NCBI GenBank assembly: GCA_947176505.1
Contig: CAMWQW010000019.1
Span: 16,436 to 80,435 of the forward strand
Reading direction: 5' to 3'
DNA from: an uncultured Lachnospiraceae bacterium
Lineage (GTDB): Bacteria; Bacillota; Clostridia; Lachnospirales; Lachnospiraceae
Length of the DNA stretch: 64,000 bases
Positions within the stretch are counted from its first letter, which is position 1. The number at the start of each line of letters is the position of its first letter. A model generated the notes under the pieces. That model was not told where the DNA came from. It saw only the letters and a list, made by a program, of their open reading frames with translations, and made no database searches. The translations under genes and the position numbers were made by a program. Below are positions 3,208-48,037 of this stretch, piece by piece.

Positions 3208-4659
3208 CTATACATTAATCTCCGCTTTTACGCCAAGCAGCTCCTTATTTTCTTCCAGTATCGGGTTCACAACCTCCGACAGGAATTTCTCCACCTGAAG
3301 GGGAGCTCGTCCCACATATCTGGACGGATCCATCGTCTTTGATAAATCTTCCTGCGTCAAATTAAAAGCAGGGTCAGCAGCAATCAGCTCAAGGAGATTA
3401 TTTTCCTTACCTTCGCGCTTCACATTAGCTCCTGCCTCCATGGACAGCTCTCTGATCTTCTCATGCAGTTCCTGACGATTACCTCCCATCTTCACGGCAT
3501 CCATCATGATATTCTCCGTCGCCATAAAGGGCAGTTCGCTCATCAGGCGCTTCGTGATAACTTTATCATAAACTACCAGTCCATCCACTACGTTCAGGCA
3601 TAAGTCAAGAATGCCGTCAACTGCCAGAAACGCCTCCGGAATGGACAGTCTCTTATTGGCTGAATCGTCTAATGTTCTCTCAAACCACTGTGTAGCAGAA
3701 GTAATTGCCGGGTTTAATGCATCTATCATCACATATCTGGACAGAGACGCGATACGCTCGCTTCTCATCGGATTTCTCTTGTATGCCATGGCTGAAGAAC
3801 CAATCTGACTCTTCTCAAAAGGCTCTTCCACTTCTTTCAAATGCTGCAGCAGCCGGATATCGTTGGACATCTTATGCGCCGATGCTGCAATACCTGCAAG
3901 CACGTTACATACCCTTGTATCAACTTTACGGGAATAGGTCTGTCCGGACACCGGATAGCATTTCTCAAATCCCATCTTCCCTGCAATCATCGGGTCAATC
4001 TTGTCAATCGTCTCCTGATCGCCGTCAAACAATTCGAGAAATGAAGCCTGCGTTCCCGTCGTTCCTTTGGAACCGAGCAGCTTCATAGTGGACAGCACAT
4101 AGTCTAAGTCCTCCAAGTCAAGGCAGAACTCCTGTGTCCACAGCGTTGCTCTCTTACCGACAGTCGTGGGCTGAGCCGGCTGAAAATGGGTAAATGCAAG
4201 AGTCGGCAAATTCTTATACTGCCCTGCAAACTTCGCAAGCTCCGCAATAACGTTCACCAGTTTCTTCTTCACTAATCTCAAAGCTTCCGTCATCACAATA
4301 ATATCCGTGTTATCTCCCACATAGCAGGAGGTAGCACCCAGATGGATAATACCCGCTGCCTTCGGGCACTGCTGTCCGTAAGCATAGACATGGCTCATCA
4401 CGTCATGACGCACTTCTTTCTCTCGGGCTTTTGCCACGTCATAATTAATGTCTTCGGCATGCGCCTTTAACTCATCAATCTGTTCTTGCGTAATGACCGG
4501 CTCCCCGTTCTGGCAAAGCCCTAGCTCCATCTCCGTCTCAGCCAAAGCAATCCACAGCTTCCTCCACGTCCTGAATTTCATATCAGGTGAGAAAATATAC
4601 TGCATCTCCTTGCTTGCATAGCGCTCCGATAACGGGCTTACATATTTGTCTGTACTCAT
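3208..4659 (-). CDS. purB: Adenylosuccinate lyase
   Basis: Cytosolic lyase of purine synthesis: it splits SAICAR to AICAR plus fumarate and adenylosuccinate to AMP plus fumarate. Family marks are the N-terminal SPLSERYAS, the HDVMSHVYAYG region with a catalytic His, THFQPAQPTTVGKR, and the mobile signature loop SSAMAYKRNPMRSERI carrying the catalytic Ser. The ATG at 4659 (MSTDKY) has an AGGAG site and gives 483 residues, normal for the family; an in-frame start 31 codons further upstream lacks support. purF lies about 1.5 kb upstream on the same strand but is separated by unrelated genes. Confidence 0.97.
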   Translation of the reverse strand: MSTDKYVSPLSERYASKEMQYIFSPDMKFRTWRKLWIALAETEMELGLCQNGEPVITQEQIDELKAHAEDINYDVAKAREKEVRHDVMSHVYAYGQQCPKAAGIIHLGATSCYVGDNTDIIVMTEALRLVKKKLVNVIAELAKFAGQYKNLPTLAFTHFQPAQPTTVGKRATLWTQEFCLDLEDLDYVLSTMKLLGSKGTTGTQASFLELFDGDQETIDKIDPMIAGKMGFEKCYPVSGQTYSRKVDTRVCNVLAGIAASAHKMSNDIRLLQHLKEVEEPFEKSQIGSSAMAYKRNPMRSERIASLSRYVMIDALNPAITSATQWFERTLDDSANKRLSIPEAFLAVDGILDLCLNVVDGLVVYDKVITKRLMSELPFMATENIMMDAVKMGGNRQELHEKIRELSMEAGANVKREGKENNLLELIAADPAFNLTQEDLSKTMDPSRYVGRAPLQVEKFLSEVVNPILEENKELLGVKAEINV

Positions 4660-4808
4660 AGCTTTTCTCCTGTTCTTCTGAGTTATATTTCTCCCTTTTC
4701 GGAAAAGTGTTCCTGCTGTATAAAACTTGAAATATAATATATATTCCTGCATTAATTACTGATTTTGCATTCACTTAACAGTCCTGCAAACGGGAAGTTA
4801 CATTGCTG

Positions 4809-5120
4809 TTATTTTTTCAGAAAATCGCTAAATTCTTTCAATTCCTTTTTTGTATCTTCTGAAAGTCTGTTATATGCTGTATCATGAATTGCTCCCTCTA
4901 ATGTATATAAATGTACCAGACACACATTTGGATATTTCTGCTTTAGCTTAAGACTTGATTATAAAATATTTGCATGCTGCCTACAATGTATTTTTATAAG
5001 CGCATTTTTCATAGGTACACAATTCCGGAAAGGGAGTTGTATTGTTAATTTCATCGCAAACGCATCACATAAATATTGTAGCACAATATGCGTATACTGT
5101 GCGAACTGAATAAAATATCT
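4809..5120 (-). pseudogene. Decayed gene fragment with in-frame stop
   Basis: One minus-strand frame stays readable from just after the kinase-like gene's stop down to a TAA at 4809-4811, broken by a single in-frame TAA at 4959-4961. On both sides of that stop the translation looks like real helical protein (QYTHIVLQYLCDAFAMKL before; KYPNVCLVHLYTLEGAIHD and TKKELKEFSDFLKK after). A single C-to-T change would turn Gln (CAA) into that stop. No start codon with a ribosome binding site was found. I do not recognise the family. It fills the otherwise gene-free gap between purB and the kinase-like gene. Confidence 0.45.
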
Positions 5121-5690
5121 TCAAGAATGTTCTTTCATATATTGTAAAAATTCCGGAGTTTTCGACCAGTATTTTATGCCCCAATTTTCAAAATTCCATT
5201 CATCCATATACTCATTACATTCAAAATCAATATAATATACTTCCTCATTCTGAACCACAAAATTGGTCGGAAAATAGTCTATATTTGTGTGAGCAGCATA
5301 TAGTAAAGTACACATATGATGCAACTGATCAAGATAGGTAGATTTCATCTTATCCTGCAAAACCAATTCATAAATTGTATCACCATCAATAAATTCCTTC
5401 AGAATCCGCTCATTTTCAATATCAACATCCACCATATCCGGAATCTTTATTCCTATTTGCTTTAAACGGTTATAATCGTTTATCTCAGCTTCCATCTTAT
5501 TGCCAAATTGATAATAATCACAGGGTTCATGATGGATTTGTTTCAAGACGTATTTTTCTGCCTGATTTGTCGCCAGATAAGAATATCCGCCCTTTCCTTT
5601 TCCCAACAGTTTTAATATTGTATATTCTTTTCCGTTTAAAAGCATCATATTATTGTTCATAATCGCTGTCCTCTTCTCAACTGTCTTCAT
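5121..5690 (-). CDS. Small protein-kinase-like protein
   Basis: A 189-residue protein with a minimal kinase fold. It has a glycine-rich loop (LLGKGKGGYSYLA), a Lys in the VLKQIH strand, a hinge-like segment (LKEFIDGDTIYEL), a catalytic-loop-like stretch (HTNIDYFPTNFVV) and a metal-binding IDFE in place of DFG. The HTNxDxxPTNF order resembles RIO/Bud32 or aminoglycoside-phosphotransferase-like kinases rather than eukaryote-type Hanks kinases. No membrane segment is present. It starts 12 bp after the DUF3795 gene with GGAGAAAG in front of the ATG, so the two are probably one transcript. Substrate unknown. Confidence 0.7.
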   Translation of the reverse strand: MKTVEKRTAIMNNNMMLLNGKEYTILKLLGKGKGGYSYLATNQAEKYVLKQIHHEPCDYYQFGNKMEAEINDYNRLKQIGIKIPDMVDVDIENERILKEFIDGDTIYELVLQDKMKSTYLDQLHHMCTLLYAAHTNIDYFPTNFVVQNEEVYYIDFECNEYMDEWNFENWGIKYWSKTPEFLQYMKEHS

Positions 5691-5702
5691 TTTCTTTCTC
5701 CA

Positions 5703-6080
5703 TTACATCCGTTCTCCTGTTCTGATAAAATCAATCAACTCCTCTATATCTTCAAAATCATCATAGTCGCCATGGAATCCATCCCTGTGATAAATAATTC
5801 CGTTTTTTTCATTTCTTTCAAGGCAGTCGAGCAGAGTCTCAAGTCCATACCGTTTAGCAAACATCGTAAATGCGTACGGCTTAGTCTTTGACAGAAATCC
5901 CCTCCTGCAGTCATTTTCACATAAGAAACAATTGGATATTCCTTTTGCAAGAGAACAGTTTCGATTGTCACACCATTCTTTATCAGGGCATTCACCGGCA
6001 CTGCATCCGTTACAGCTATCGTTTTTTGAACATAAGCAACAAGCCAGTCCGCATCTTGCAATCTCAAGTTCTCTTTTCAT
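5703..6080 (-). CDS. DUF3795 cysteine-rich protein
   Basis: A 125-residue cytosolic protein packed with cysteines near its N-terminus: ARCGLACCLCSKNDSCNGC, followed by further Cys in CPDKEWCDNRNCSLAKG and CFLCENDC. This spacing is typical of DUF3795 proteins, thought to bind zinc or another metal; the function is unknown. The ATG at 6080 is chosen because GAGGGA precedes it; an earlier in-frame start adds 17 unlikely residues. The C-terminus is acidic (DYDDFEDIEELIDFIR). It sits between purF and the small kinase-like gene on the same strand. Confidence 0.8.
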   Translation of the reverse strand: MKRELEIARCGLACCLCSKNDSCNGCSAGECPDKEWCDNRNCSLAKGISNCFLCENDCRRGFLSKTKPYAFTMFAKRYGLETLLDCLERNEKNGIIYHRDGFHGDYDDFEDIEELIDFIRTGERM

Positions 6081-6152
6081 TCTAATCCCTCTTTCATTTC
6101 TCCTCTTCATTATGGAAAACGTGCAACGCACGGCTCACAATTCTATTGTTTC

Positions 6153-7589
6153 TCAGCGTTCATACTCTCCTCTGATGTCTTCCTCCGGCGGCGTAAGCGG
6201 ATACTGTCCCGTAAAGCAGCCTTTACAGATTTCCAGACCGTCAACAATTTCTTCTAATCGTTCCATCTTAAGATAACCGAGAGAATCCGCACCGATAATC
6301 TTACAAATCTCCTCCACGGAACGTTCATAGGCAATTAACTGCTCTCTTGCCGGCACATCCGTACCGAAATAGCATGGGTATAAAAATGGTGGAGAGCTCA
6401 CTCTCATATGTACTTCTTTTGCCCCAGCTTCCCGCAGCATTTTGACGATACGGTCCGAAGTTGTCCCTCTGACAATCGAATCATCTATCATAATAATGCG
6501 CTTACCGTTTACCGCCTCTTTGACCGCATTAAGCTTAACCTGAACGCTGCTCTCACGGCTCTTCTGCCCCGGCTTGATAAAAGTCCGTCCTACATAGGTG
6601 TTTTTCACGAATGCTTGTCCGTACGGGATACCGGACTGCATCGAATATCCCAAAGCCGCACAGTTGCCTGACTCCGGCACGCCCACCACCAAATCCGCTT
6701 CCACAGGTGAATCCATTGCGAGAAATCTGCCTGCCATGACACGGGAGTTATAGACGCTGACACCGTCAATACGACTGTCCGGTCTGGCAAAATATATATA
6801 CTCGAAGATACATCTTCCATGCTGCTTTCTCGGAAGACACATGTTCCTATTCGATTCAAGTCCTTTGTCCGGCGAAATCGTAACAATCTCTCCCGGCTCC
6901 ACATCTCTTACAAATTCTGCACCGATGGTATCAAGAGCACAGGTTTCCGAAGCGAAGATGTATGCATTGTCCCTCTTTCCGATACAAAGCGGTTTAAATC
7001 CGTAAGGATCTCTTGCTCCGATTAACTTGCGGGGCGACATGACTACCAGTGAGTAGGCACCTTTCATCTTATACATGGCGCGTCCCACAGCCTCCTCCAC
7101 GCTCTTACTGTTTAACCGTTCTCTGGCAATATGATAAGCGATGACTTCCGAGTCTATCGTCGTCTGAAAAATCGCGCCGGAATATTCCAGTTCATGCCGA
7201 AGTTCAGCCGCATTGATTAAATTGCCGTTATGTGAAAGTCCCAATGTTCCTTTTACATAATTTAACACTAACGGCTGAGCGTTTTCTCTTGTACTGCTGC
7301 CCGTTGTCGAATAACGGACATGCCCGACACCGATATCGCCTTTTAATTTCTCCAGTGTTTCCGGGGTAAAGTTCTCGTTTAAAAGCCCCATCTCCTTAGT
7401 GCTTAGCACTTTTCCTTTGGGTCCGGCAGTGTCACTGACCGCAATGCCGCAGCTTTCCTGCCCTCTGTGCTGCAATGCGAATAACCCATAATAGATTGTG
7501 GACGCCACGTCGCCGCCGTCAAAATCATAGATACCGAATACACCGCACTCCTCACCTAACTTGTCTGTCTGCTCTGTCTTTGTGCTCAT
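6153..7589 (-). CDS. purF: Amidophosphoribosyltransferase
   Basis: First committed enzyme of purine synthesis: PRPP plus glutamine gives 5-phosphoribosylamine. An N-terminal propeptide of 14 residues precedes the nucleophile Cys15 (EECGVFGIYDF), which must be exposed by processing in this class. The class II glutaminase domain has GHVRYSTTGS and LSHNGNL; the PRTase domain carries the PRPP loop IIMIDDSIVRGTTSDR. Cysteines near residues 255, 407 and 457 fit the Fe-S-containing Bacillus-type enzyme. The ATG at 7589 has GGAGAGG seven bases upstream; an in-frame TTG two codons earlier is less likely. It follows the coiled-coil membrane gene by 41 bp. Confidence 0.97.
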   Translation of the reverse strand: MSTKTEQTDKLGEECGVFGIYDFDGGDVASTIYYGLFALQHRGQESCGIAVSDTAGPKGKVLSTKEMGLLNENFTPETLEKLKGDIGVGHVRYSTTGSSTRENAQPLVLNYVKGTLGLSHNGNLINAAELRHELEYSGAIFQTTIDSEVIAYHIARERLNSKSVEEAVGRAMYKMKGAYSLVVMSPRKLIGARDPYGFKPLCIGKRDNAYIFASETCALDTIGAEFVRDVEPGEIVTISPDKGLESNRNMCLPRKQHGRCIFEYIYFARPDSRIDGVSVYNSRVMAGRFLAMDSPVEADLVVGVPESGNCAALGYSMQSGIPYGQAFVKNTYVGRTFIKPGQKSRESSVQVKLNAVKEAVNGKRIIMIDDSIVRGTTSDRIVKMLREAGAKEVHMRVSSPPFLYPCYFGTDVPAREQLIAYERSVEEICKIIGADSLGYLKMERLEEIVDGLEICKGCFTGQYPLTPPEEDIRGEYER

Positions 7590-7630: not shown

Positions 7631-8818
7631 CTATGATTTCGCAAACTTCTTCTCGTACTCCTCCACCGATGCCATAATCTCCTTGGCGTACTGCGGATAT
7701 TTCTCCACCAATGCCTTAATTTCTTTCTGTGAACCGCCCGCCACAACTTCTTTGTTATAATCCATCCGACGGCGCAGAGACTGCCTTCTGATAATCAGAT
7801 TATGACGTATCTCTACCATTTCCTTGTGATCCAGAATAGCCTCCGTCTGATGCAGCCACACTGCCGGGTCTTTAATCTGATACCTCTTTAAAATCTGCAA
7901 AAGCTCCTGTTCATTGTAGTCAAGATCCAACTCCGCTCTCCTGAATTTCTCGCGCTCCTCTTTTTCAATTTTATAATTTTCCCACAATTGCATCAGTTCC
8001 TGCGCACTGGATACGCCATACTTCAAATAAAGATAGTCTAACAGATTCGTATTGTTGACATATCGGATTTTGACTTTATTTTGCAACAGAATAATCTTAT
8101 TGATTCCGGTCTCCACACGGTGGAGTTCCTTTCTGGCATCCACATGTTTGACGTAAATCACTGTAATCGCAATCGCGGCAGCGGCAGCAGTCACCAGATA
8201 ACCGGCGTGAGTATCCATATCTAAGAAGAACTGCAACAGCAGCAGAAGCAGTATACAGAGTCCAAGCGCTGCCACACAGATAAACGCCATACCTCTCGTA
8301 TCCGATATGATATGCATCACTTCATTTTTCCGATACAGGTACGCATGCTTCTCGCCTTCCAGTCTGTTCAAGTCCTGTCTGATCAGATCCTGATAGTCTT
8401 CAGCCTCCGTAAGTTTTTGATAACCCTCTTCAACCTCATCGGCTATCCGCTCTATATGCTGGTACTTTTCATCACTAATCCTGCGGGGTCGTTCCATGAA
8501 ATCAGCTTTACTGTCCTGTAACAGTGACACTCTCTTTGCACATTCCTTAAGCTGTTCACTTTCCTCCGGAGGAAGCGCCTCTATCTCTTCCATATCCTTC
8601 AGATAAGATGTGACCATATCATACTCAAATGTTAAATTCTCCAATTCCCGCGTTGCATCCGCCATCCGCTCGAGGCAGTTCTTGACATAATCATTTCTCT
8701 GCTCTTTATTATGATAATCAATCTGATGGGAGACCTCTTCGTCCTCCCACTCCTCATCGTGTATGTCAGATTCATCACTTTTTCGAAACTTATTAATTAA
8801 ATTTTTAAACCAACCCAT
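7631..8818 (-). CDS. Coiled-coil membrane protein of the solenoid operon
   Basis: Unrecognised 395-residue protein. A very acidic N-terminus (SDIHDEEWEDEE) leads into a long charged helical region predicted to form coiled coil up to about residue 170. Two adjacent membrane segments follow (FICVAALGLCILLLLLLQFF and LVTAAAAAIAITVIYV), then a second coiled coil to the end. This is a helical hairpin in the membrane with both arms facing the same side, probably the cytoplasm. The start has GGAGACGG upstream. It is the last of four genes starting at 14662 and precedes purF. A scaffold or membrane anchor for its neighbours is inference only. Confidence 0.7.
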   Translation of the reverse strand: MGWFKNLINKFRKSDESDIHDEEWEDEEVSHQIDYHNKEQRNDYVKNCLERMADATRELENLTFEYDMVTSYLKDMEEIEALPPEESEQLKECAKRVSLLQDSKADFMERPRRISDEKYQHIERIADEVEEGYQKLTEAEDYQDLIRQDLNRLEGEKHAYLYRKNEVMHIISDTRGMAFICVAALGLCILLLLLLQFFLDMDTHAGYLVTAAAAAIAITVIYVKHVDARKELHRVETGINKIILLQNKVKIRYVNNTNLLDYLYLKYGVSSAQELMQLWENYKIEKEEREKFRRAELDLDYNEQELLQILKRYQIKDPAVWLHQTEAILDHKEMVEIRHNLIIRRQSLRRRMDYNKEVVAGGSQKEIKALVEKYPQYAKEIMASVEEYEKKFAKS

Positions 8819-8842
8819 TGCCGTCTCCGTTCAAATATACTT

Positions 8843-9724
8843 TTAAGAAACATATTCCCGATACTTTTCTTTTAATCCGATTGTCAGTTTGTCAATTTCC
8901 TGATAATACTGCACATCACTGCCTCCGGTGCCGCTTCCTTCTTCCTTAAATACCTGAAGGGTAAAGAGCATACGATTCTCATCCGTTCCTTCAAACTGCC
9001 CGGAAGCCTGATTCATCCGTCTCTCCACTCTCAGTGATGCATCATGATATTCCGGATGGTCCGCAATGAACGTAATATACTCTTTATCTTCATAATGCAT
9101 ACGCTGAGATGCCAGATACATCTCAAGGCTCTCCGCATTCCTGTCCTGACCATACGCCTGCATAAACCAATCCGCCGCCTGCTCATACATAAACATTCCG
9201 GCACATGTCACTCCCATATTATGCAAAATCGCACTGCGCAGCGTCTTATCTGACTCCGGTACCTGTTCGATCAGACTGTAATACTGTTTGAGAGCCATAA
9301 AATACTTCTTGTTCTGCAGCATATAATCTGCCTTAGCCTTTTTACGCTCGTACGGATTTAGTCCCTCATTGCTTTTGACAACCTGCTCAGTCTGTACGAT
9401 CACTTCCTCCGGATACAGATTTACATATTCTAATATTGTTCCCACAAAGGCAACGGCGGAACCGTTCTGATTCAGCAATGAATAGAGTGTATGCGCCAAA
9501 TCGTTGAGTCCGCATTGTTCATCCAGCCATTGTACGAGTTCCCGCTGCAGCATATCCTGATCTAACAGCTCTGCCTTCTCTACCAAAAGATAACACAACT
9601 CTTCTACCGAATACAAGTTTACATAAAATTTATCTACATAGTATGGTTTCAAGGCATATTTGCCTGTCCCCAGAATAATCTGACTCATGACCGCAGTCAC
9701 ACCTTTCCGTATCTCATCTGTCAT
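8843..9724 (-). CDS. TPR-like helical protein of the solenoid operon
   Basis: A 293-residue soluble protein with no signal peptide or membrane span. The middle has helix pairs with TPR-like spacing (KADYMLQNKKYFMALKQYY, then ILHNMGVTCAGMFMYEQAAD and WFMQAYGQDRNAESLEMYL). The N-terminal part looks like a separate helical domain. The family is not recognised. It lies 24 bp upstream of the coiled-coil membrane gene and about 58 bp downstream of the Hsp70-like gene, on the same strand, so it should be co-expressed with them. A protein-interaction role is likely from the repeats; partner unknown. Confidence 0.65.
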   Translation of the reverse strand: MTDEIRKGVTAVMSQIILGTGKYALKPYYVDKFYVNLYSVEELCYLLVEKAELLDQDMLQRELVQWLDEQCGLNDLAHTLYSLLNQNGSAVAFVGTILEYVNLYPEEVIVQTEQVVKSNEGLNPYERKKAKADYMLQNKKYFMALKQYYSLIEQVPESDKTLRSAILHNMGVTCAGMFMYEQAADWFMQAYGQDRNAESLEMYLASQRMHYEDKEYITFIADHPEYHDASLRVERRMNQASGQFEGTDENRMLFTLQVFKEEGSGTGGSDVQYYQEIDKLTIGLKEKYREYVS

Positions 9725-9782
9725 CTGTAAGTCCGCAAAAGCATATGCCCTACACGGAATATATTACAAAACATAATAAATA

Positions 9783-11090
9783 TCAAGGCACCTCAAAAGT
9801 CTGCTCCCATATCTGATCCGTCGGAGGAAACAGCTCGCCAAACCCCAAATCGGTCACCTTAACCTGCACTTTTTCCGGTGCGCTCATGGACATCTTCAAG
9901 CGATATCTCGTAAAAGGCGCGTTACTGCCTCCGGATAACGAAATCTGCCTCGCCTCTATATTTTTACCTGTAAGCGGCGTAATCACAAAAGCTATTTCCC
10001 GCTCCCCTTCCAAAAGAAATTCACATTCTCTCTCAGCCTCATACCAGTTCTCACCGGCATCCAAAAGCGCATAATAAGATTCTTTTCCTTGGCGCAATAC
10101 ATTCATACCGATATTGGATTTGAGCTTATCCTTTCCAAGAAAGACATGTCTGCTCCCCACTTCGCCGGGTTCCAGCTTTTCCATCAAGCCGTAGCACGCC
10201 CCCTTACTGAAAAGGTTGTTCCCCTGAAAAACTCTCCTATTATGGCAGAGAAATTGCAGTGATTGCACATTCCAGTCTTCTCGAAACCCATCTCCCAACA
10301 AATATGCCGAGGAAACAATCCTTCCTTCACACAGCCGCTTTAAGATTCCCAGAAATCGTTCATCCGCCAGACGGTATGCACCCTGCTTCGTCTCTTCCTC
10401 TTCCGTATCCTCGGGAATGACTAACGTATCATAAACCTGTTCCTCAATCAGCACTACTATCGGCGTCGTGCGCTTATTGCACTCCATTCGGTATGTCTTT
10501 AATCTCATACCGTCATGCTCGCATGCAAGCGCCTGATAAGTCCATAATTCAGGCGGCTGATGCAGCATAAAATAATAGAAGCTTTCCGTATGGCTCTGAA
10601 AGTAAATCTGCGTCGTCTTTAATCCGAGATTCGCCGATGCCTGTACCAGAATCTCCACCATTCTGTCATCCAGTTCATCCACTGTGAACATAATCGAATG
10701 TATCTTTTCGATTGTAGTGATAAAGTTTAACAGCGTCATACTCCGTTTTAAGAAAAGAGTGAGCAGTGCCACAGGATCATAAGACTCGCCATCCAGCTCA
10801 ATCTCCCCACCTTTTCTCGCAAGCTTTAAAAGCCCTTCCACGGGAATCATAGCCTCTTCCCCTGCGTTCTTGACAGCATCCTTACCGTAAAACCACTGAT
10901 TAACCCCTTCTCGTTTACATAACATTGTCGGAATATTATACTGTTTTGTACCCACAACGGTAGCAACCGTATCTGCATCTTCCTCTCCGTAGACGTAATA
11001 GCTAATCTGAGAATATTTCTCCCCCAGATCGTAACCGACCAGAACGCTTCCCTTATGCAGTTTGCCTTCTTCTTTCCTATCTAAGAACAT
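9783..11090 (-). CDS. DUF5716-type protein with degenerate Hsp70/actin-like fold
   Basis: A 435-residue protein. I believe it belongs to DUF5716, recalled and not searched. The motif order resembles Hsp70: a phosphate-1-like strand (VGYDLGEKYSQISYY), then IPTMLCK and WFYGKDA like the early DnaK segments, a middle helix-strand unit (VDELDDRMVEILVQASANLG, then QSHTESFYYFML), and an adenosine-motif-like end (AYLLGDGF, then NNLFSKGACYGL). The second phosphate loop, DxGGGTxD in DnaK, is not recognisable, so ATPase activity is doubtful. A beta-rich C-terminal domain follows. Its ribosome site AGGAGG overlaps the stop of the upstream 1187-residue gene, so the pair is tightly coupled. Confidence 0.75.
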   Translation of the reverse strand: MFLDRKEEGKLHKGSVLVGYDLGEKYSQISYYVYGEEDADTVATVVGTKQYNIPTMLCKREGVNQWFYGKDAVKNAGEEAMIPVEGLLKLARKGGEIELDGESYDPVALLTLFLKRSMTLLNFITTIEKIHSIMFTVDELDDRMVEILVQASANLGLKTTQIYFQSHTESFYYFMLHQPPELWTYQALACEHDGMRLKTYRMECNKRTTPIVVLIEEQVYDTLVIPEDTEEEETKQGAYRLADERFLGILKRLCEGRIVSSAYLLGDGFREDWNVQSLQFLCHNRRVFQGNNLFSKGACYGLMEKLEPGEVGSRHVFLGKDKLKSNIGMNVLRQGKESYYALLDAGENWYEAERECEFLLEGEREIAFVITPLTGKNIEARQISLSGGSNAPFTRYRLKMSMSAPEKVQVKVTDLGFGELFPPTDQIWEQTFEVP

Positions 11091-11098
11091 GATGCCTC

Positions 11099-14000
11099 CT
11101 AGCGCATACGGAATATTTTATCAACCATATAGTCCTGTCTGTAATACTCTCCAAGCAGACCGCCAACCGTATCATAATCATGCAGCGTCTTACCAATCAT
11201 AATATCATTCAACAATGTGAATCTACTCTCAAAATTCTCCTGTGCAATATCGCTCTTATTAATCGTGCCGCTCTTCGTCAACTGCTCGTTACCCTCTGAC
11301 TCCTCAGTAATATAGAACTGAAGACGCTCGCCGAAAAAGAGGATAAATTCCTTAACGCAGATACCTGCAAACATATCCTTCATCTCTTCCTTGCAATACT
11401 CATTCTCCGTATTGTCCCCACTCTGAATCACATAGTGAATCACAGCCCTGCAGCCGGGTTTGGTCCGATATTCTACAATCGTCTTATCCTGATACTCATC
11501 CATCTGAGGTATGTAACCTTGGTATTCTTTGTAGACCGGCAGCACAATCTGTTCCTCCAGAAGCTCCTTAAGGAAGTTACAACATGCGGCTCTTGACACC
11601 TCGTTCTGTTCCTGTTTATCCTCCGCATAATATTGCAGACACGCTATCTTGCACACCGAATGAAGCGATACACCTTCCTGATACAGCTGCAGTACACTCT
11701 GAAAAATATACGGTTCCGTAATATGTTCCTCTATCGCGTAATCGTAGCAGCATTGAGACAGGAACGCCGCCTTCAGTCCATCACTGCCGATACCCTTACT
11801 GTATGTACGGAAAATCTCCATTTTCTCCCCGACATGCGCTCCTGTATAAAGCATTTGTATCAACATGCGCTCGCACAGCGCGTATGTATCCACGCCAAAA
11901 TCCTTAGCCGCTTTCCATATGTCCCGCATATCCTTGATACTGCCATTTAAATAACGTATCAGATATTCCAGTATATTCTCGTCATATTTTCCCTTTTTCA
12001 CCACATAGAATAAGATACCTGTCATGAGCGGGCTTTCCACTGTCTCTTCTTCATCCAGCAGCCTGCTGCATAGTTTCGCTAAAATCTTAGCATCCACACC
12101 GTATGGTCCATAGCGGCATACCCAATTGTACGCCTCTTCATACATCCCGCGCACTACCATGTAACGTATTATTTCCTTGCGGTCTCTTCTGGAAACATCA
12201 TCCGGCTTAAGTTCCAGCAAATAGTCATCTAGCTCACGCATCCTGTCCTTTTCATAATAGAAATGCACCAGCATCATACGCATCTCACGTTTCATCATTT
12301 CTTCCATCCGGTCAGATCTGGAAAGAAGCAGGACAAAGTCCGCGTTATCGTCACGCACAGTAAAGGTATTCTGATATTCAAAGCATGTATAAATGGCATA
12401 TCCCGGATCATCACGCACATAAGGCGCCACCATCAGAGCAAGCTTGGCAGGACTTAGCAGTACTTCCATACTGTAATCTATACTCACCGTATATCGGTTT
12501 CCCTCCCCATCATCCAACAGTACTTTGCAGTCCGAATCATAAATCGGAACCTGCGCCCTGCCGTCAATCACAGGATATACATGTTCGCCTACGCCATAAG
12601 GATACACGAGGATTACCTCTTTAACTTTATCGGATGCCACTCTGATTTCCCGCATGAAAAGGAGTAAAACAAGCTGTTTCGCGCTTTCTTCATCAACCAT
12701 TGGCAGACTAATCAGATTTCGATATAGATATGCCAAGTCTTTATTGATCCTGCCTCTCCTGATTTGTTCGGTCACAAAACGCTCAATCGCCGCAGAATAG
12801 TTTACATAAATATCCGGCATTTCTTCCCTATGCCGATACACATAAGCATATAAATACGCTGTAATCTCATAATGCAAGTCACTTTGATATGCAAAATACA
12901 TCAGAATCATCTTTGGCAAAGGACCATTATACTCCAACGAGATGGACATCATATAATATTCATATAATCTTGTAATCCGAAGATTCTCTTCCACCCCTGC
13001 ACGATACCATTCAAAATACTTCTCACCGTAACGGTTTCCTTTGATGAGTAATGTACAGACAGCATGGAGGATATCACTCCGGGGATTCATCTCATAACAC
13101 CCTTTTAAAATCTTGAAAATATTGTCCGAATATGTCTTCTGCTTCTGCGCCAAATACACCACTTGCAGAATAATCTCTTCTTTCATCAGACCGTTTTTCA
13201 CCGCAAAAAGCAGTATCTGCTGTTCAAAGGCGTCCAGTTTCAAAAGCATGGGCGGATTCATGCAAAATAAGTGCCATGCTTCAATATAGATGACGGGTGA
13301 TGCGCAGTGATAACGGAATAATTCCTCCAACAGCTCCCACTTGTGTGAAGAGTTCTTGACATACTCCTCGGATAAATACATTAACAGCCACGCAATGCGC
13401 CAATTACCTCTGTTACGCTCATAGACATCAGCCACTTCTGCTGCCACATCATCCACATACTCGTCGTCTTTACTGTACAATGTCGTGAGGTACAAATAAT
13501 AGCACCACAGTTCCGGGCACTTCTCACGTCTCAGGATTACCTGTTCTTCATGCTTTTCAATCATCCACTTTGCTTCATTGTAACGCTCCTCGGTCAACAG
13601 AATCTGAGCCTGAAACAGTTTGAGCGTAATATCCTTATCATCCAGCTCCATCATACGGTTAAGAAGCTGATTCGTCTCAGTCATCCATGTCTTAGCGCTG
13701 ATTTTCCTAAGACGGAATGCTTGATAATATTCCATCATTTCTACCGTAAGTCTGCCTTTTTCTTTATGTAATCCCAATGCTTTCCTTCCGGTCATGTGCA
13801 GCACAACCGTAACCGGAATCTTCATCACACCATGCTCCTGTACTAACAGAATGGCGCCGTAATTATTTCCCGCATGCAGTTTCTCGATATCTACATAGTA
13901 ATAGACTCTGTAAATATTCCCCAGAAAAGAAGAGTCTGTCGCAGTATCCTCTTCCACCCGCAGAAACTCTCCCTCGGTCTCTATTCCCAAATGAGTATAT

Positions 14001-14662
14001 CCCCATCCGTTTCTGCCAACCACTAATGCATAGCGGGTCGTTTGAAGCGGATCCTCTATCTTAATCGATGTTTCCTCCGGTATGTACTCCACCGGCTTTT
14101 TCTTATGAATCTCCAGAAGAAATTCTTCGACATTATGCTCATTACCCTTCACTGCCGATAGTCCGTGGTAAGCTGCAAGATGCTGTTTGTCATTTCCTGT
14201 GAACACTTGTTTAAACTCGTCAGAATAGAACAACTTGACCGCTTCATCCCAGTTACTTTTAGCCAGATTGGTAAAATGGAACAGATTCTTGATATTTCCC
14301 AGACTGGATACAATGACTTCGGGCACAATCGTTACCGAAAAAGGAAGATAGTATTCCCCCTGATTGGAAATCACATTGAAAGCCCCTTTCACCTCTTCGC
14401 CCACTTCCATGCCGTGCGCGTCAAAGCGATAGTGAATTTCATCCTGACTTCCGCTAAACGTCTGCGTCAGACATTCCATACGAAGATCGGAGGACACCAC
14501 ATGACCTTCCGTCACACGTCCTTCCGGTCCATATACCATGAAAAAATCTTCCACTACCGTATCAATATGCGTTGATAACTCAATACGCGGACAGGAAAAG
14601 TCCAGAGAACCGGTACCAGCATTAAATTTTCCGTTTAAGATCTCCTCAATTACCTGTTTCAC
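11099..14662 (-). CDS. Giant alpha-solenoid protein (DUF5717-type)
   Basis: A 1187-residue protein, probably DUF5717 (family recalled, not searched). About residues 1-310 are beta-rich, with two sandwich-like segments (FFMVYGPEGRVTEGHVV; GEYYLPFSVTIVPEVIV). The rest is mostly helical pairs resembling TPR/solenoid repeats (ERYNEAKWMIEKHEEQVIL; RGMYEEAYNWVCRYGPYG), with a beta insert around residues 690-790. No signal peptide or membrane span is seen, so it should be cytosolic. It starts with GTG at 14662 (AGAGG ten bases upstream) and is the first gene of the operon behind a clear promoter. Function unknown; the architecture suggests a large scaffold. Confidence 0.75.
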   Translation of the reverse strand: MKQVIEEILNGKFNAGTGSLDFSCPRIELSTHIDTVVEDFFMVYGPEGRVTEGHVVSSDLRMECLTQTFSGSQDEIHYRFDAHGMEVGEEVKGAFNVISNQGEYYLPFSVTIVPEVIVSSLGNIKNLFHFTNLAKSNWDEAVKLFYSDEFKQVFTGNDKQHLAAYHGLSAVKGNEHNVEEFLLEIHKKKPVEYIPEETSIKIEDPLQTTRYALVVGRNGWGYTHLGIETEGEFLRVEEDTATDSSFLGNIYRVYYYVDIEKLHAGNNYGAILLVQEHGVMKIPVTVVLHMTGRKALGLHKEKGRLTVEMMEYYQAFRLRKISAKTWMTETNQLLNRMMELDDKDITLKLFQAQILLTEERYNEAKWMIEKHEEQVILRREKCPELWCYYLYLTTLYSKDDEYVDDVAAEVADVYERNRGNWRIAWLLMYLSEEYVKNSSHKWELLEELFRYHCASPVIYIEAWHLFCMNPPMLLKLDAFEQQILLFAVKNGLMKEEIILQVVYLAQKQKTYSDNIFKILKGCYEMNPRSDILHAVCTLLIKGNRYGEKYFEWYRAGVEENLRITRLYEYYMMSISLEYNGPLPKMILMYFAYQSDLHYEITAYLYAYVYRHREEMPDIYVNYSAAIERFVTEQIRRGRINKDLAYLYRNLISLPMVDEESAKQLVLLLFMREIRVASDKVKEVILVYPYGVGEHVYPVIDGRAQVPIYDSDCKVLLDDGEGNRYTVSIDYSMEVLLSPAKLALMVAPYVRDDPGYAIYTCFEYQNTFTVRDDNADFVLLLSRSDRMEEMMKREMRMMLVHFYYEKDRMRELDDYLLELKPDDVSRRDRKEIIRYMVVRGMYEEAYNWVCRYGPYGVDAKILAKLCSRLLDEEETVESPLMTGILFYVVKKGKYDENILEYLIRYLNGSIKDMRDIWKAAKDFGVDTYALCERMLIQMLYTGAHVGEKMEIFRTYSKGIGSDGLKAAFLSQCCYDYAIEEHITEPYIFQSVLQLYQEGVSLHSVCKIACLQYYAEDKQEQNEVSRAACCNFLKELLEEQIVLPVYKEYQGYIPQMDEYQDKTIVEYRTKPGCRAVIHYVIQSGDNTENEYCKEEMKDMFAGICVKEFILFFGERLQFYITEESEGNEQLTKSGTINKSDIAQENFESRFTLLNDIMIGKTLHDYDTVGGLLGEYYRQDYMVDKIFRMR

Positions 14663-14703: not shown

Positions 14704-14733
14704 ATTATACCATTTATAGGGTGGGCTGTGCAA
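14704..14733 (-). promoter_or_regulatory. Sigma-A-type promoter of the solenoid operon
   Basis: Read on the minus strand, TTGCAC (14728-14733) and TATAAT (14704-14709) are separated by 18 bp and lie about 40 bp upstream of the GTG start at 14662. This is the best promoter match for the four-gene operon and possibly for purF. Confidence 0.7.
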
Positions 14734-14775: not shown

Positions 14776-16053
14776 ATGAGGTTTTTTATGGAAGAGCCTA
14801 TCTTAAAAAGTATGCAGTCCGAAGGAACCGAACAGGGCAGGCTGCAGGTCAACGTTACTGCCAACGTTGGTCTGATACCGATTCAAAATGCCAGTATCAC
14901 CATCTCTTATACCGGCGAACCGAACAGTACCTTAGAAACCCTGACGACAGATTCCTCCGGTCAGACTGATACCGTGTCGTTAAACGCTCCGCCCCTCGAA
15001 TACAGCCTGACTCCCAATTCTCCCATGCCATATGCGGAATATACATTAAACATTACCGCCCCGGGATATGAGTCCGTAACTGTATCCGGTGTAGAAATAC
15101 TACCCGATGTGACAGCCGTACAAAATATCGAAATGACCCCCACCGAGACAGCGCAGGAGCCGGAAGAAACGATTGTAATCCCGGATCATACCCTCTATGG
15201 AGATTACCCACCTAAAATTCCGGAAGATGAAATCAAACCCATGGACGAATCCGGCGAGATTGTCCTAAGCCGAGTCGTTATTCCGGAATATATCATTGTA
15301 CATGACGGCGTTCCCTCCGATTACACCGCCTCAAATTATTACGTCAAATATCGTGATTACATTAAAAACGTAGTTTCGTCAGAGATATATGCCACTTGGC
15401 CGGAGAACGCTATCTATGCCAACACGCTCGCCATTATGTCCTTTACATTAAACCGGGTCTATACGGAGTGGTATCGGAATCAAGGTTATGACTTCACCAT
15501 CACTTCCTCCACCGCCTACGACCAGAAATGGATGCGCGGAAGAAACATCTACGCCAACGTGGACAGACTGGTAGATTCCATTTTTGCCAATTATCTCTCC
15601 CGTCCCGGCGTACGCCAGCCTATTTTTACATCATATTGTGACGGAAAGAATGTCACTTGTAACGGCTTAAGTCAGTGGGGTTCCAAATATCTTGGAGATG
15701 AAGGCTATTCACCCATCGAAATCATACGTTATTATTACGGAAGCGATATGTATATCAACACTGCCGTAGCCGTATCCGGCGTACCTTCTTCGTGGCCCGG
15801 CTATAACCTGAACGTCGGTGCTTCCGGAGACAAAGTGTTGCAGATTCAGCAGCAGCTCAACCGCATCTCCCAGAACTATCCGGCAATTCCACGCATCACG
15901 GCAGACGGCATCTACGGTAATAACACCGCCAATGCAGTGCGCACTTTCCAGCGCATCTTTAACCTGCCACAGTCGGGCATCGTAGATTATCCGACATGGT
16001 ATAAGATTTCCGAGATATATGTGGGAGTAAGCAGAATCGCGGAACCGTCGTAA
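14776..16053 (+). CDS. SpoIID/LytB-like protein with C-terminal peptidoglycan-binding domain
   Basis: A 425-residue protein with three parts. The N-terminus is an Ig-like or carboxypeptidase-regulatory-like beta domain (about residues 20-120). The middle (about 165-330) resembles SpoIID/LytB-type proteins: YYVKYRDYIKNVVSSEIYAT, then ANTLAIMSFTLNRVY and CNGLSQWGSKYLG. The C-terminus is a PG_binding_1 domain (LQIQQQLNRISQNYP, then DGIYGNNTANAVRTFQRIF). No signal peptide is visible, which is odd for a wall-acting protein and fits a mother-cell or spore-coat location only as inference. An AGGAAGAG site precedes the ATG. It diverges from the solenoid operon and converges on the arabinofuranosidase gene. 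Confidence 0.8.
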   Translation: MRFFMEEPILKSMQSEGTEQGRLQVNVTANVGLIPIQNASITISYTGEPNSTLETLTTDSSGQTDTVSLNAPPLEYSLTPNSPMPYAEYTLNITAPGYESVTVSGVEILPDVTAVQNIEMTPTETAQEPEETIVIPDHTLYGDYPPKIPEDEIKPMDESGEIVLSRVVIPEYIIVHDGVPSDYTASNYYVKYRDYIKNVVSSEIYATWPENAIYANTLAIMSFTLNRVYTEWYRNQGYDFTITSSTAYDQKWMRGRNIYANVDRLVDSIFANYLSRPGVRQPIFTSYCDGKNVTCNGLSQWGSKYLGDEGYSPIEIIRYYYGSDMYINTAVAVSGVPSSWPGYNLNVGASGDKVLQIQQQLNRISQNYPAIPRITADGIYGNNTANAVRTFQRIFNLPQSGIVDYPTWYKISEIYVGVSRIAEPS

Positions 16054-25329: not shown

Positions 25330-27450
25330 CTATTTTGTCAGTAACATCATAATATCATTGCTTCTGGCAACAAACTTCGTCATTGCCTCCGGCTCGAGAG
25401 GCGCCTGCTGTAACAGTGCCAAATCATAAAGCTGCTCGCAGATCATCTTCACATTGTCACCTTCCTGATTGTCCAGCACATACTGCACTAAAGGATGGTT
25501 TGCATTCAGAATCAGTGTCTCGCCTTCCTTACCGAATGCACCCATGTCCATTCCCGGCATGGAGTACATCTTCATCATATCCTGCATTCTGCGTGTCTCT
25601 TCAGACAACGTAATCATGGAAGAAATCTTCTTGTTTTTCAGCTTCTCAATCTTTACTTTGATGGCATCTTTCTTAAGAACCTTCTTCATCAGCTTGGCAA
25701 CTGCCTCCGCCTGCTCTTCCATCTCTTTCTCTGCTTTCTTGGAAGTCTTCGCTTTAAACACATCCGTCAGGTCCGCATCGATCCTCTGGAACTTGATTCC
25801 TTCATTCTTTGCCTCAAGCTGCGACACAAATGGCTGGTCGATATTGTGTGTCAGAACAACCGCGTCCATCTTAGCAGACTTAAACATATTAATATACTGA
25901 CTCTGCTGCTTCTCGTCAGTCACGTAATAGATAACTTTCTCTTTCTTCTCTTCCTCTGCTTCGACAGTATCACCGTTTTCATCGACAACCTCACCGTCCA
26001 CCTTCTCGGCTTCTTCAACTGCCTCAGATTCTACTTTCTCGCCATTCTCATCGACTACCTCGGCTTCCACTTTCTCGCCGTTCTCATCGACAGCATCAGA
26101 TTCAGCGTCGTCTGGATCAATTTTATTGACTTCCAGACATTCCGGAAGCGTCATATACTCACCATCCAAGTTCTTGAAAAGAATATAGTCTGTCATCTTC
26201 TCGCAGAACTTATCATCCTTTAAGCAGCCGAACTTGATGAACGGACTGATGTCATCCCAATATTTCTCGTATTCCTCTTTCTCTGTCTTGCACATACCGG
26301 ACAACTTATCCGCAACCTTCTTCGTGATATACTCACTGATTTTCTTCACGAATCCATCATTCTGTAATGCACTTCGTGATACGTTGAGCGGCAGGTCCGG
26401 ACAGTCAATCACACCTTTTAGCAAAAGTAAAAACTCAGGAATGACTTCCTTGATGTTGTCGGCGATAAACACCTGATTGTTATACAATTTAATCGTGCCC
26501 TCGATGGACTCATATTCCATATTAATCTTCGGGAAGTAAAGGATACCCTTCATATTGAACGGATAGTCCATATTCAAGTGAATCCAGAAGAGAGGTTCCT
26601 TGTAATCCTGAAATACCTTACGGTAAAATTCCAGATATTCTTCTTTGGAACATTCATTGGGATGCTTTGTCCAAAGAGGACAGGTTTCATTGAGCAGCTC
26701 CGGGCGCTTCTTAATCTTTAATTTCTGCTCGTCTTCTTCCTTTTCTTTCTTAATCTCCTCGACTACTTCATCGGTATTCAGCTTTTCATCTTCCTTGATA
26801 ATCTGTGTCTCCGTAGTGTTTGCCTTGGAAAGATAAATCTCTGTAGGCATGAAGGAACAATATTTCTTGATAACCTCTTTCGCCTTATACTCATTGCAGA
26901 ACTCCAAGCAGTCTTCATTAATGTAGAGTGTAATCTCAGTACCGACTTTGGTTCTGTCACCTTCCTGCATATCGAATTCAGTTCCGCCATCACATTCCCA
27001 GTGTACTGCCTGTGCGCCGTCCTGATAAGACAACGTATCAATATGCACCTCATCCGCCACCATAAATGCCGAGTAGAATCCCAGACCGAAATGCCCGATA
27101 ATCTGATCTTCGTTTGCCTTGTCTTTATATTTCTCGATAAAATCCGTCGCTCCGGAAAAAGCAATCTGATTAATATACTCTTCCACTTCCGTCGCTGTCA
27201 TTCCGATACCATTATCAATAAATTTCAAAGTCTTCTCTTCCGGATTGACAATTACCTCTATCTTCGCCTTGTAATCATCCGCCAAGGCGTACTCGCCCAT
27301 CATATCCAACTTCTTCAATTTCGTAATCGCATCGCATCCGTTAGAAATCAGCTCCCTGAAAAAGATGTCATGATCGGAGTATAACCACTTCTTGATAATC
27401 GGGAAAATATTATCGCTGTTAATTGATAAGTTTCCATGTTTCGCTGCCAT
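25330..27450 (-). CDS. htpG: Hsp90-family chaperone HtpG with acidic repeat insert
   Basis: Cytosolic ATP-driven chaperone. The N-terminal GHKL ATPase domain shows FFRELISNGCDAITKL, DNGIGM and GHFGLGFYSAFMVAD. A charged linker follows (EEIKKEKEEDEQKLKIKKRP), then the middle domain (RSALQNDGFVKKISEYITKK) and a C-terminal dimerisation domain ending near NDIMMLLTK. At 706 residues it is longer than typical HtpG (about 620-640). The excess is mainly an acidic repeat at about residues 446-498 built on DENGEKVE-like units. A sigma-A promoter and a perfect CIRCE lie upstream, so HrcA should repress it. Confidence 0.96.
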   Translation of the reverse strand: MAAKHGNLSINSDNIFPIIKKWLYSDHDIFFRELISNGCDAITKLKKLDMMGEYALADDYKAKIEVIVNPEEKTLKFIDNGIGMTATEVEEYINQIAFSGATDFIEKYKDKANEDQIIGHFGLGFYSAFMVADEVHIDTLSYQDGAQAVHWECDGGTEFDMQEGDRTKVGTEITLYINEDCLEFCNEYKAKEVIKKYCSFMPTEIYLSKANTTETQIIKEDEKLNTDEVVEEIKKEKEEDEQKLKIKKRPELLNETCPLWTKHPNECSKEEYLEFYRKVFQDYKEPLFWIHLNMDYPFNMKGILYFPKINMEYESIEGTIKLYNNQVFIADNIKEVIPEFLLLLKGVIDCPDLPLNVSRSALQNDGFVKKISEYITKKVADKLSGMCKTEKEEYEKYWDDISPFIKFGCLKDDKFCEKMTDYILFKNLDGEYMTLPECLEVNKIDPDDAESDAVDENGEKVEAEVVDENGEKVESEAVEEAEKVDGEVVDENGDTVEAEEEKKEKVIYYVTDEKQQSQYINMFKSAKMDAVVLTHNIDQPFVSQLEAKNEGIKFQRIDADLTDVFKAKTSKKAEKEMEEQAEAVAKLMKKVLKKDAIKVKIEKLKNKKISSMITLSEETRRMQDMMKMYSMPGMDMGAFGKEGETLILNANHPLVQYVLDNQEGDNVKMICEQLYDLALLQQAPLEPEAMTKFVARSNDIMMLLTK
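25957..26112 (-). repeat. Tandem acidic repeat inside htpG
   Basis: Within htpG the coding sequence repeats a unit translated as VDENGEKVEAEV and close variants (VDENGEKVESEA, VDENGDTVEAEE), plus a shorter EEAEKVDGE unit. It lies between the middle-domain strands ending in VNKIDPDD and starting with KVIYYVTDE, where other HtpG proteins have a short acidic loop. Confidence 0.85.
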
Positions 27451-46162: not shown

Positions 46163-47033
46163 ATAGCATCCTTAAATCCTGAAAAATCAGTCGATAGATA
46201 TCCGTCCCGGTGCTGCATACCGCGTAGAATGCACCTGCCTTTACGCATTCCCGCCGTATCCGGTCCGTAAATTCCTGCAGGGACTTCTCATATGTCCGGA
46301 TACTTCCGGCATCCAATGTAACACGCAGTGTACTTTGATCCTCCATATCAATCAGATTCCGTGTGCCCGTTAGTTCCACGGAAAGCTCTTCCTTCGCCAG
46401 CACATGCAACAGTACGATTTTCTGCTTTCTGTAATTTAAGAAACGCAGCATCTTTTGCAGAGTCTCCTGTTCCTGCTCCAGAAAAGTCTCCTGCAGAAAA
46501 TCGCTGATCAGAATGGTCACGCCCGTTCCTTTCATGGGAAGCCCGCCGACAGCTTTTGCAATATCCACCGTTCCCACAAAAGAACGCTTCTCTAACCAGT
46601 CTACAAGTCGGGGCAAGGCTCTCTTTCCGCCTTCCGCCACAAAAGGCAGATGCATCCTACCCATATCATAGAGGACGACACGGTCCATGCCATTTAATCC
46701 CATATGGGAAAAAGCCGCCGCCAGCATACAGGCAAGCTCACTCTTTTTCTTCTCCCCGTAATCCATGGAGGCACTGGTATCGATCAGGATCGAAACCAAT
46801 GCTTCCTTTTCCTCCATATATTCCTTGATATAGAACCTGTCCAGACGCCCATAGGCATTCCAGTCAATGCGGCGTATATCGTCTCCCGGCATATACTCCC
46901 TGAAATCTGAAAATTCCATGGAAGAACCTTTCTGTATGGATTTACGGTTTCCGGTCAGGTTCATGGATGTTCTGTGCCCCATAGCCAGTCTAAGTCTTGA
47001 CAGCCTGTCAAAAAATGCAGCGTCCAACATCAT
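46152..47033 (-). CDS. DUF58 domain protein
   Basis: A 293-residue protein of the DUF58 family, which accompanies MoxR ATPases and VWA proteins. The signature is FREYMPGDDIRRIDWNAYGR, followed by a VWA-like fold starting with VSILIDTSASMDYG (MIDAS-like DTSAS) and TILISDFLQE. No membrane span is evident, so it is cytosolic or membrane-associated through partners. It lies 23 bp after moxR and overlaps the next gene. The role is inferred from gene context in the family: MoxR-assisted assembly or activation of an envelope complex. Confidence 0.92.
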   Translation of the reverse strand: MMLDAAFFDRLSRLRLAMGHRTSMNLTGNRKSIQKGSSMEFSDFREYMPGDDIRRIDWNAYGRLDRFYIKEYMEEKEALVSILIDTSASMDYGEKKKSELACMLAAAFSHMGLNGMDRVVLYDMGRMHLPFVAEGGKRALPRLVDWLEKRSFVGTVDIAKAVGGLPMKGTGVTILISDFLQETFLEQEQETLQKMLRFLNYRKQKIVLLHVLAKEELSVELTGTRNLIDMEDQSTLRVTLDAGSIRTYEKSLQEFTDRIRRECVKAGAFYAVCSTGTDIYRLIFQDLRMLYDI

Positions 47034-47056
47034 AACTACCTATTCACTCCTATTCC

Positions 47057-48037
<981 letters not shown>

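Follow-up and report, generated by a model that had tools for sequence, protein, structure and literature searches.

A conserved Lachnospiraceae operon pairing DUF5717 with an Hsp70-derived DUF5716 protein: a candidate ATP-independent scaffold

We analyzed a stretch of 64,000 nucleotides (hereafter, the window) from contig CAMWQW010000019.1 of an uncultured Lachnospiraceae bacterium, with a focus on an operon of four minus-strand genes encoding a DUF5717 protein (S), a DUF5716 protein (B), a tetratricopeptide repeat (TPR)-like protein (T), and a coiled-coil (CC) protein with a membrane hairpin (K). The operon is considered here together with its relatives in other Lachnospiraceae and with a larger cluster, holding four Hsp70 genes and a GrpE-like gene, found in sister families of the same order, Lachnospirales; the two together suggest a scaffold built around an Hsp70 that would no longer cycle ATP.

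The operon and its distribution

The open reading frame (ORF) list returned the four minus-strand genes of a preliminary description of this DNA over the same span, with intergenic gaps of 8, 58, and 24 bp for S-B, B-T, and T-K, respectively (Table 1), and Pfam bore out the two family names put forward there. The first protein matches DUF5717_N (E = 0) and DUF5717 (1.3e-100), that is, PF18984/PF18983, with 1029 and 337 bits against a cut-off of 25; the second matches DUF5716_C (PF18980; 9.4e-102, 340 bits against a cut-off of 34.7). The TPR-like protein reaches TPR_12 at 1.2e-4, under the model's cut-off; the CC protein has no Pfam match below an E-value of 0.2; and NCBIfam gave no above-cut-off name for any of the four operon proteins, the VapB model matching DUF5717 (1.6e-4, 22 of 60 bits) being disregarded as sub-cut-off. 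The genes had been placed behind one clear promoter, and a promoter-like site is indeed present, with 10 of 12 consensus matches, a 17-bp spacer, a perfect −10 box, and a TG before it; however, it is one of seven 10-match sites among the 30 consensus sites found in 10 kb (shuffle mean 21.7), which leaves this promoter plausible rather than clear.

Lachnospiraceae are a prominent gut family, and DUF5717 is present, mostly as a single copy, in 293 of the 299 genomes sampled from it (243/246 of the good-quality ones). Outside Lachnospirales, we saw no clear DUF5717 or DUF5716_C match in samples of the class and of the phylum, which hold few genomes from the other Lachnospirales families: 10 of 291 genomes of the class sample match DUF5717 (the window's own and nine more Lachnospiraceae), and 5 of 398 genomes of the phylum sample match DUF5716_C, every one of them Lachnospiraceae. 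With a sister-family DUF5717 profile, a class sample of 283 genomes yielded ten Lachnospiraceae genomes and two weak, partial matches (2.0e-6 and 2.3e-4), which we took as chance TPR-like similarity. Relatives in named records are mostly Lachnospiraceae.

The preliminary description had named a lack of co-conservation of the genes across genomes as one thing that would refute it, and the synteny survey does not refute it. The order DUF5717-DUF5716-TPR is kept in 9/9 further Lachnospiraceae loci (with a DUF5717 of just 853 aa in L021) and in 20/20 diverse loci hand-picked from a longer list; since the order is kept across the family, the grouping is not due to chance. Among the best 80 of 357 loci, in which close relatives and four-gene operons are therefore over-represented, DUF5716 is found in 78 and the TPR gene in 76, the misses falling at contig ends. 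Conversely, five of the six Lachnospiraceae genomes without DUF5717 are also without DUF5716. At the level of the order, DUF5717 was sought in 116 Lachnospirales genomes with the sister-family profile and found in 62: 59 genomes have both DUF5717 and DUF5716_C, three have DUF5717 alone, none has DUF5716_C alone, and 54 have neither, the 59 DUF5716_C matches being split between 11 Lachnospiraceae and 48 genomes of other families. Among the genomes without a DUF5717 match, 20 are listed, 10 of them from four families (f208, f214, f218, and f224).

What had been described as a four-gene system is, however, better seen as a three-gene core with an optional fourth gene: S-B-T is kept, but the CC gene is present in only 67 of 150 Lachnospiraceae genomes (two of the matches being weak, around 1e-4) and therefore lies outside the operon core. 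Hydropathy places a membrane hairpin in the CC protein (residues 177–195 and 205–223) and none in the DUF5717, DUF5716, and TPR proteins; a heptad count scored 60 of its 368 windows, whereas 100 shuffles averaged 10.8 and never exceeded 51; the other three proteins have no clear excess. As the heptad windows lie mainly before the hairpin and fewer lie after it, the coiled coil is supported chiefly ahead of the hairpin, which was first proposed to have coiled coils on both sides. Where the DUF5717 position is listed, 37 of 40 strong CC matches are no more than about 4 kb away from DUF5717, and the remaining three are on different contigs. The gene is missing from 17 of the 20 diverse loci and follows the TPR gene in the sister-family loci L156 and L175. 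By eye, no hairpin look-alike stands directly after the TPR gene in 19 CC-less loci (L017 and L021 included), where the following genes presumably serve metabolism, transport, or tRNA charging. In L153, the genes one and two places beyond the post-TPR position encode short proteins, each with paired hydrophobic stretches. Six genomes (G341, G418, G371, G368, G307, and G399) have CC matches with one or two in-frame stops, either gene decay or sequencing errors.

Predicted structures of DUF5716 and DUF5717

The Pfam HSP70 model (PF00012) does not reach the window DUF5716, and direct phmmer searches of DUF5716 and DUF5717 against the PDB returned nothing usable, the matches to SpoIIQ (0.64) and ApxC (0.21) being taken as chance. 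A DUF5716 profile built from 24 relatives found DnaK among the PDB sequences (E = 1.3e-4), and the structure model, computed from an alignment of 61 of 70 eligible relatives, has an Hsp70 fold with a nucleotide-binding domain (NBD) and the beta part of the substrate-binding domain (SBD-beta), at a predicted local distance difference test (pLDDT) score of 88.6 and a predicted TM-score (pTM) of 0.83. The model ends in strands and has no C-terminal helix, i.e., no helical lid. Foldseek matched Hsp70s across both domains (best E = 5.7e-20); among the matches listed, 48 of 50 carry the name of an Hsp70-family protein or of a complex that contains one, including the entries 6sr6 and 5mb9 (Ssz1 complexes) of the ribosome-associated complex (RAC), and two are ciliary with the chain unnamed. 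The TM-scores are moderate (0.43–0.60 by query length), we infer because the two domains sit in another relative position. Profile, model, and fold matches thus agree with the Hsp70-like motif order reported earlier for this protein, and on these grounds DUF5716 is an Hsp70 by descent.

For the 1187-residue DUF5717 protein, the AlphaFold2 model (52 of 77 eligible relatives in the alignment; pLDDT 83.9, pTM 0.59) agrees with the solenoid architecture first suggested for it, with the layout given in Table 1. Its profile has no match in the PDB, and Foldseek returned local matches only (TMq 0.07–0.13), to ciliary central-pair chains (1.7e-6 over some 290 columns), which we take to be Ig-type repeats, and to a Ctr9/Paf1 complex entry (5.2e-6). 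The predicted protein has the look of a scaffold; the fold matches say nothing of a shared function.

A multi-Hsp70 cluster in sister families

DUF5716_C matches in the sister families usually fall on two neighboring proteins of about 500–580 aa. We hand-picked 20 loci from the 48 non-Lachnospiraceae Lachnospirales genomes with such a match and found, in 18 of them, seven genes on the same strand in the order DUF5717, Hsp70-A, GrpE-like (G), Hsp70-B, Hsp70-C, Hsp70-D, and TPR; the other two loci are sub-strings of this arrangement, GBC in one and GBCD in the other, which is a 7-kb contig. Hsp70-A, -C, and -D are motif-intact, D being fused to a vWA domain, Hsp70-B is motif-broken, and the GrpE-like protein bears a long extension. 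Because genes are separated by several hundred bases or more in some loci, the cluster is not everywhere a compact operon. Locus L158 gives an idea of the Pfam scores: HSP70 at 5.1e-76 for A, 7.4e-63 for C, and 4.5e-96 for D (plus vWA at 1.9e-10), GrpE at 3.0e-13 for G, DUF5716_C at 1.5e-26 together with HSP70 (PF00012) at 1.4e-17 for B, and TPR_2 at 5e-26 for the T relative, a clear TPR protein. The window TPR-like protein is related to the sister T by profile hidden Markov model and by alignment. Beyond the cluster, L156 and L175 carry a gene that we take to be valS, and so do the Lachnospiraceae loci L017, L143, and L150; this neighbor, common to both types of loci, suggests one ancestral site. 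In L156 (genome G968, 4205–7384), two genes, those of Hsp70-D and of the TPR protein, are broken into two frames apiece, which may mark a decaying intermediate or sequencing errors.

The Lachnospiraceae locus thus holds the relatives of S, B, and T in the same order as the sister cluster and differs from it in being without A, G, C, and D. Pfam finds no GrpE gene among the four operon genes of the window. In the window genome, DnaK is the sole strong Hsp70 match (the remaining HSP70 matches are weak and partial), GrpE is present once, and dnaK lies on a different contig from the operon; in the two Lachnospiraceae genomes checked, no cluster Hsp70 was found elsewhere in the genome. Of 120 Lachnospiraceae genomes, a single GrpE match was found in 103, at least two in ten, and none in seven, and no GrpE lies within 40 kb of DUF5717 on the same contig in the multi-GrpE genomes with a listed DUF5717 position (8/10). 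Second, weaker GrpE-like matches (3.6e-14 to 2.6e-6) were noted in G350 (C3:68664-69128), G356 (C7), G327 (C4), G394 (C64), and G357 (C27), on another contig than DUF5717 wherever its position is listed.

In order to compare the ATPase motifs, we aligned 55 rows of A, C, D, and DnaK, 18 rows of Hsp70-B, and 24 rows of DUF5716, namely L156 (also counted in B) and 23 Lachnospiraceae rows hand-chosen from more than 100 loci. Neither the catalytic lysine, nor the phosphate-2, adenosine, and spacing measures were used for row selection. The catalytic-lysine column is K in 55/55 A/C/D/DnaK rows, 0/18 B rows, and 0/24 DUF5716 rows, and the phosphate-2 aspartate (the DnaK D201 column) follows the same pattern (55/55, 0/18, and 0/24); the phosphate-2 glycines, the threonine, and the last aspartate are intact in all 55 rows of the first group, and the second adenosine glycine is found in none of the 24 DUF5716 rows. 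The spacing between the phosphate-2 and adenosine motifs is 65–78 aa in the 23 Lachnospiraceae rows, 134–152 in the 18 B rows, and 143 in three DnaKs, so that about 70 residues are missing from the NBD of Lachnospiraceae DUF5716. Going by Hsp70 topology, we take this stretch to be most of lobe IIB, the lobe gripped by GrpE. Without the canonical motifs of an ATP-cycling Hsp70, DUF5716 seems, from its sequence, unable to hydrolyze ATP. A quick tree of these rows without the L156 duplicate places the 23 Lachnospiraceae DUF5716 in one group (98 by the Shimodaira–Hasegawa-like approximate likelihood ratio test, SH-aLRT), joined to the B of L156 (97) and of L172 (99), with A, C, and D each separate and apart from it; by this analysis, DUF5716 groups with Hsp70-B, which is motif-broken in the sister families too. 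Neither this loss of residues and of a lobe nor the match to a seven-gene multi-Hsp70/GrpE cluster minus several genes was visible from the single window.

As for the surroundings of the operon (Table 1), the gene with its ATG at 7589, presumably purF, may share the operon transcript because the 41-bp gap before it holds no terminator-like site; it stands next to the operon in part of the genomes only, and the flanking gene varies. On the other side, the divergent SpoIID/LytB-like gene has its intergenic region in common with the operon, and a similar gene is found at many related loci. An Hsp90 gene lies about 11 kb away, and a second ATPase + vWA set is also present in the window, where no tRNA, nor any Rfam match at the gathering threshold, was found.

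Table 1. Features of the operon and of its surroundings (window positions; residues where indicated).
Feature	Position	Strand	Basis or remark
DUF5717 protein (S), 1187 aa, GTG start	11099-14662	-	ORF list, Pfam
DUF5717, predicted layout, N-terminal half	residues ~1-120 and 190-290 (beta sandwiches); 293-668 (alpha solenoid); 670-735 (beta insert)		AlphaFold2 model
DUF5717, predicted layout, C-terminal half	residues 739-1058 (second solenoid); 1060-1135 (beta domain)		AlphaFold2 model
DUF5716 protein (B), 435 aa	9783-11090	-	ORF list, Pfam
TPR-like protein (T), 293 aa	8843-9724	-	ORF list, sub-threshold Pfam
CC protein (K), 395 aa	7631-8818	-	rich in heptads ahead of a membrane hairpin (residues 177-223), with a helical part after it
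Promoter-like site, TGCACA-17-TATAAT	14704-14732	-	upstream of operon
purF-like gene, possible read-through fifth gene	6153-7589	-	41 bp after CC
SpoIID/LytB-like gene, divergent	14776-16053	+	PG_binding_1 6.3e-15, SpoIID 2.9e-6
Cysteine-rich protein, 142 aa	5703-6131	-	no Pfam or NCBIfam match
Small RIO1/Bud32-like kinase	5121-5690	-	RIO1 3.3e-5 (over cut-off), Bud32 model 1.4e-8 (under cut-off)
Hsp90 gene	25330-27450	-	HSP90 7.1e-63
MoxR-type AAA+ / DUF58 / 1485-aa BatA-vWA-GATase-like cluster	41705-48037	-	

A proposed scaffold without ATP, and its alternatives

We propose, with a probability of about 0.6, that the operon encodes a scaffold that works without ATP, either to hold clients or for assembly, and that resembles Ssz1 of RAC. 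DUF5716 would be a constitutive, nucleotide-independent subunit docking on the DUF5717 solenoid, its lidless SBD-beta would present or hold client segments without ATP, the TPR protein would serve as an adaptor, and the CC protein, where present, would tether the assembly to the membrane. In the sister families, three active Hsp70s and their exchange factor would gather on this platform; in Lachnospiraceae, the platform alone would be an ATP-free holdase or assembly scaffold, or else a nucleator passing clients to the housekeeping DnaK. The near-universality of the operon in Lachnospiraceae suggests a housekeeping client. The chaperone-or-scaffold interpretation of the preliminary description is, overall, partly supported by sequence comparisons and models.

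With the canonical DnaK/Hsp70 and GrpE system, DUF5716 shares the fold of both domains and the motif order, but it is without the catalytic residues, the lobe IIB stretch, and the lid, and its operon is without an exchange-factor gene. Ssz1 offers a closer parallel: as described in excerpts of PMC10191838, it consists of an NBD and a rudimentary SBD-beta without a helical lid, binds ATP but does not hydrolyze it, has an NBD described with lobe IIB, and stays in a stable complex with its partner, a ribosome-bound J-domain protein. DUF5716, as known here from sequence and model, likewise has an NBD and an SBD-beta, no lid, and broken catalytic motifs, and it may work alike; it differs in being largely without the lobe IIB stretch and in its partner candidates, which are DUF5717 and the TPR protein rather than a J-domain protein. 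Because no J domain is listed for the proteins scanned, we did not file DUF5716 as Ssz1/RAC type.

One has to keep in mind several points that weigh against the scaffold proposal. DUF5716 keeps the first aspartate in 20/24 rows and the first adenosine glycine in 24/24, and therefore it may still bind nucleotide; since presence of the phosphate-1 motif served to pick the A/C/D rows and its absence the B rows, the contrast in phosphate-1 is there by construction. The tree was made without bootstrap and midpoint-rooted, with long branches flagged (the B_L156 join included). B does not form a single group, 16 of its 18 rows falling outside the one with DUF5716, and the exact branching is therefore unsure. 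The pTM of the DUF5717 model is just 0.59, and it is gene order alone that suggests the docking of DUF5716 on DUF5717. One genome, G310 (67% complete), has DUF5716 but no DUF5717 match. Finally, 4 of the 59 Lachnospirales DUF5716_C matches are under the Pfam cut-off (55 are over), and a non-Lachnospiraceae match can be Hsp70-C, so that co-occurrence at the level of the order is one of clusters.

Hsp110-like Hsp70s act as partners or exchange-type helpers, and DUF5716 might be such a cofactor of the housekeeping DnaK, with DUF5717 and the TPR protein delivering DnaK to one client and the ATP being borrowed. The window genome does retain DnaK and one GrpE, Hsp70-B does sit among motif-intact Hsp70s in the sister families, and Ssz1 works with an active Hsp70, according to the excerpts of PMC10191838; we nevertheless hold this explanation to be unlikely, as dnaK lies away from the operon and, among the Pfam matches listed for the four window proteins and ten sister-cluster proteins, there is no J domain.

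Were the protein an Hsp70-derived domain with a structural role alone, such as an element of the cytoskeleton or the envelope, and the complex without a chaperone role, this would agree with the eroded catalytic motifs of DUF5716, with the local fold matches of DUF5717 to ciliary central-pair chains and TPR-scaffold complexes, and with the membrane hairpin protein attached in part of Lachnospiraceae. However, DUF5716 has kept its SBD-beta, and the motif-intact Hsp70s and the GrpE-like protein of the sister clusters make for a chaperone-like context; we therefore see little likelihood in it.

Neighborhoods combining HSP70, GrpE, and a beta-repeat/TPR or DnaJ protein occur in some GTPase-centered conflict systems, such as those with GAP1-N2 (eLife 2020, PMC7159879, in excerpts), whereas no GTPase, tubulin, or GAP1 protein was seen here and the sister clusters hold four Hsp70s in a fixed order. 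A role of the cluster in phage defense or in another kind of conflict is very improbable: PADLOC gave a single weak match (mad3 on the CC protein, 9.4e-4, 16.8 bits) and nothing for the DUF5717, DUF5716, and TPR proteins, there is no GTPase or tubulin among the Pfam matches listed for the four window and ten sister proteins (the remaining neighbors being judged by eye only), the genes are near-universal and mostly single-copy in Lachnospiraceae, and none of 151 pattern stretches on viral contigs was confirmed as a relative, so we rejected a defense role.

To return to the proposed scaffold, its Lachnospiraceae form, S-B-T with an optional K, would have arisen by loss from the seven-gene cluster, loss seeming simpler to us than gain because Hsp70-B is motif-broken in the sister clusters too, flanked there by motif-intact Hsp70s; it also counts against the proposal that A, C, D, and G may have been gained elsewhere instead. 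We tentatively consider, at somewhat less than even odds, that members of Lachnospirales have a machine of three active Hsp70s and a dead one, a GrpE-like factor, and a giant scaffold, of which Lachnospiraceae kept the dead-Hsp70 platform and shed the engines, the GrpE, and the lobe, which would leave a near-universal assembly platform working without ATP.

Hsp70 machinery as such is already known; its composition here and the apparent loss of its engines are unusual. Searches of open-licence PubMed Central text found related chaperone papers only, with no recognizable description of the seven-gene cluster, and full-text search of the same text found no study of DUF5717 or DUF5716 (a single, unrelated paper came up for DUF5716), yet these are near-universal in the sampled Lachnospiraceae; in a survey of bacterial DnaK paralogues (PMC11019930, in part), the strings "Clostridi" and "Lachnospir" appear nowhere in the main text. 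Two orphan Pfam families thus gain a context: DUF5716 a predicted Hsp70 fold and ancestry, and DUF5717 a predicted architecture and constant partners. The sister locus, where four Hsp70s stand together with a dedicated GrpE-like gene, is a likely source of the Lachnospiraceae operon, and the role of an Hsp70 that would no longer cycle ATP becomes a testable question, with living relatives at both stages.

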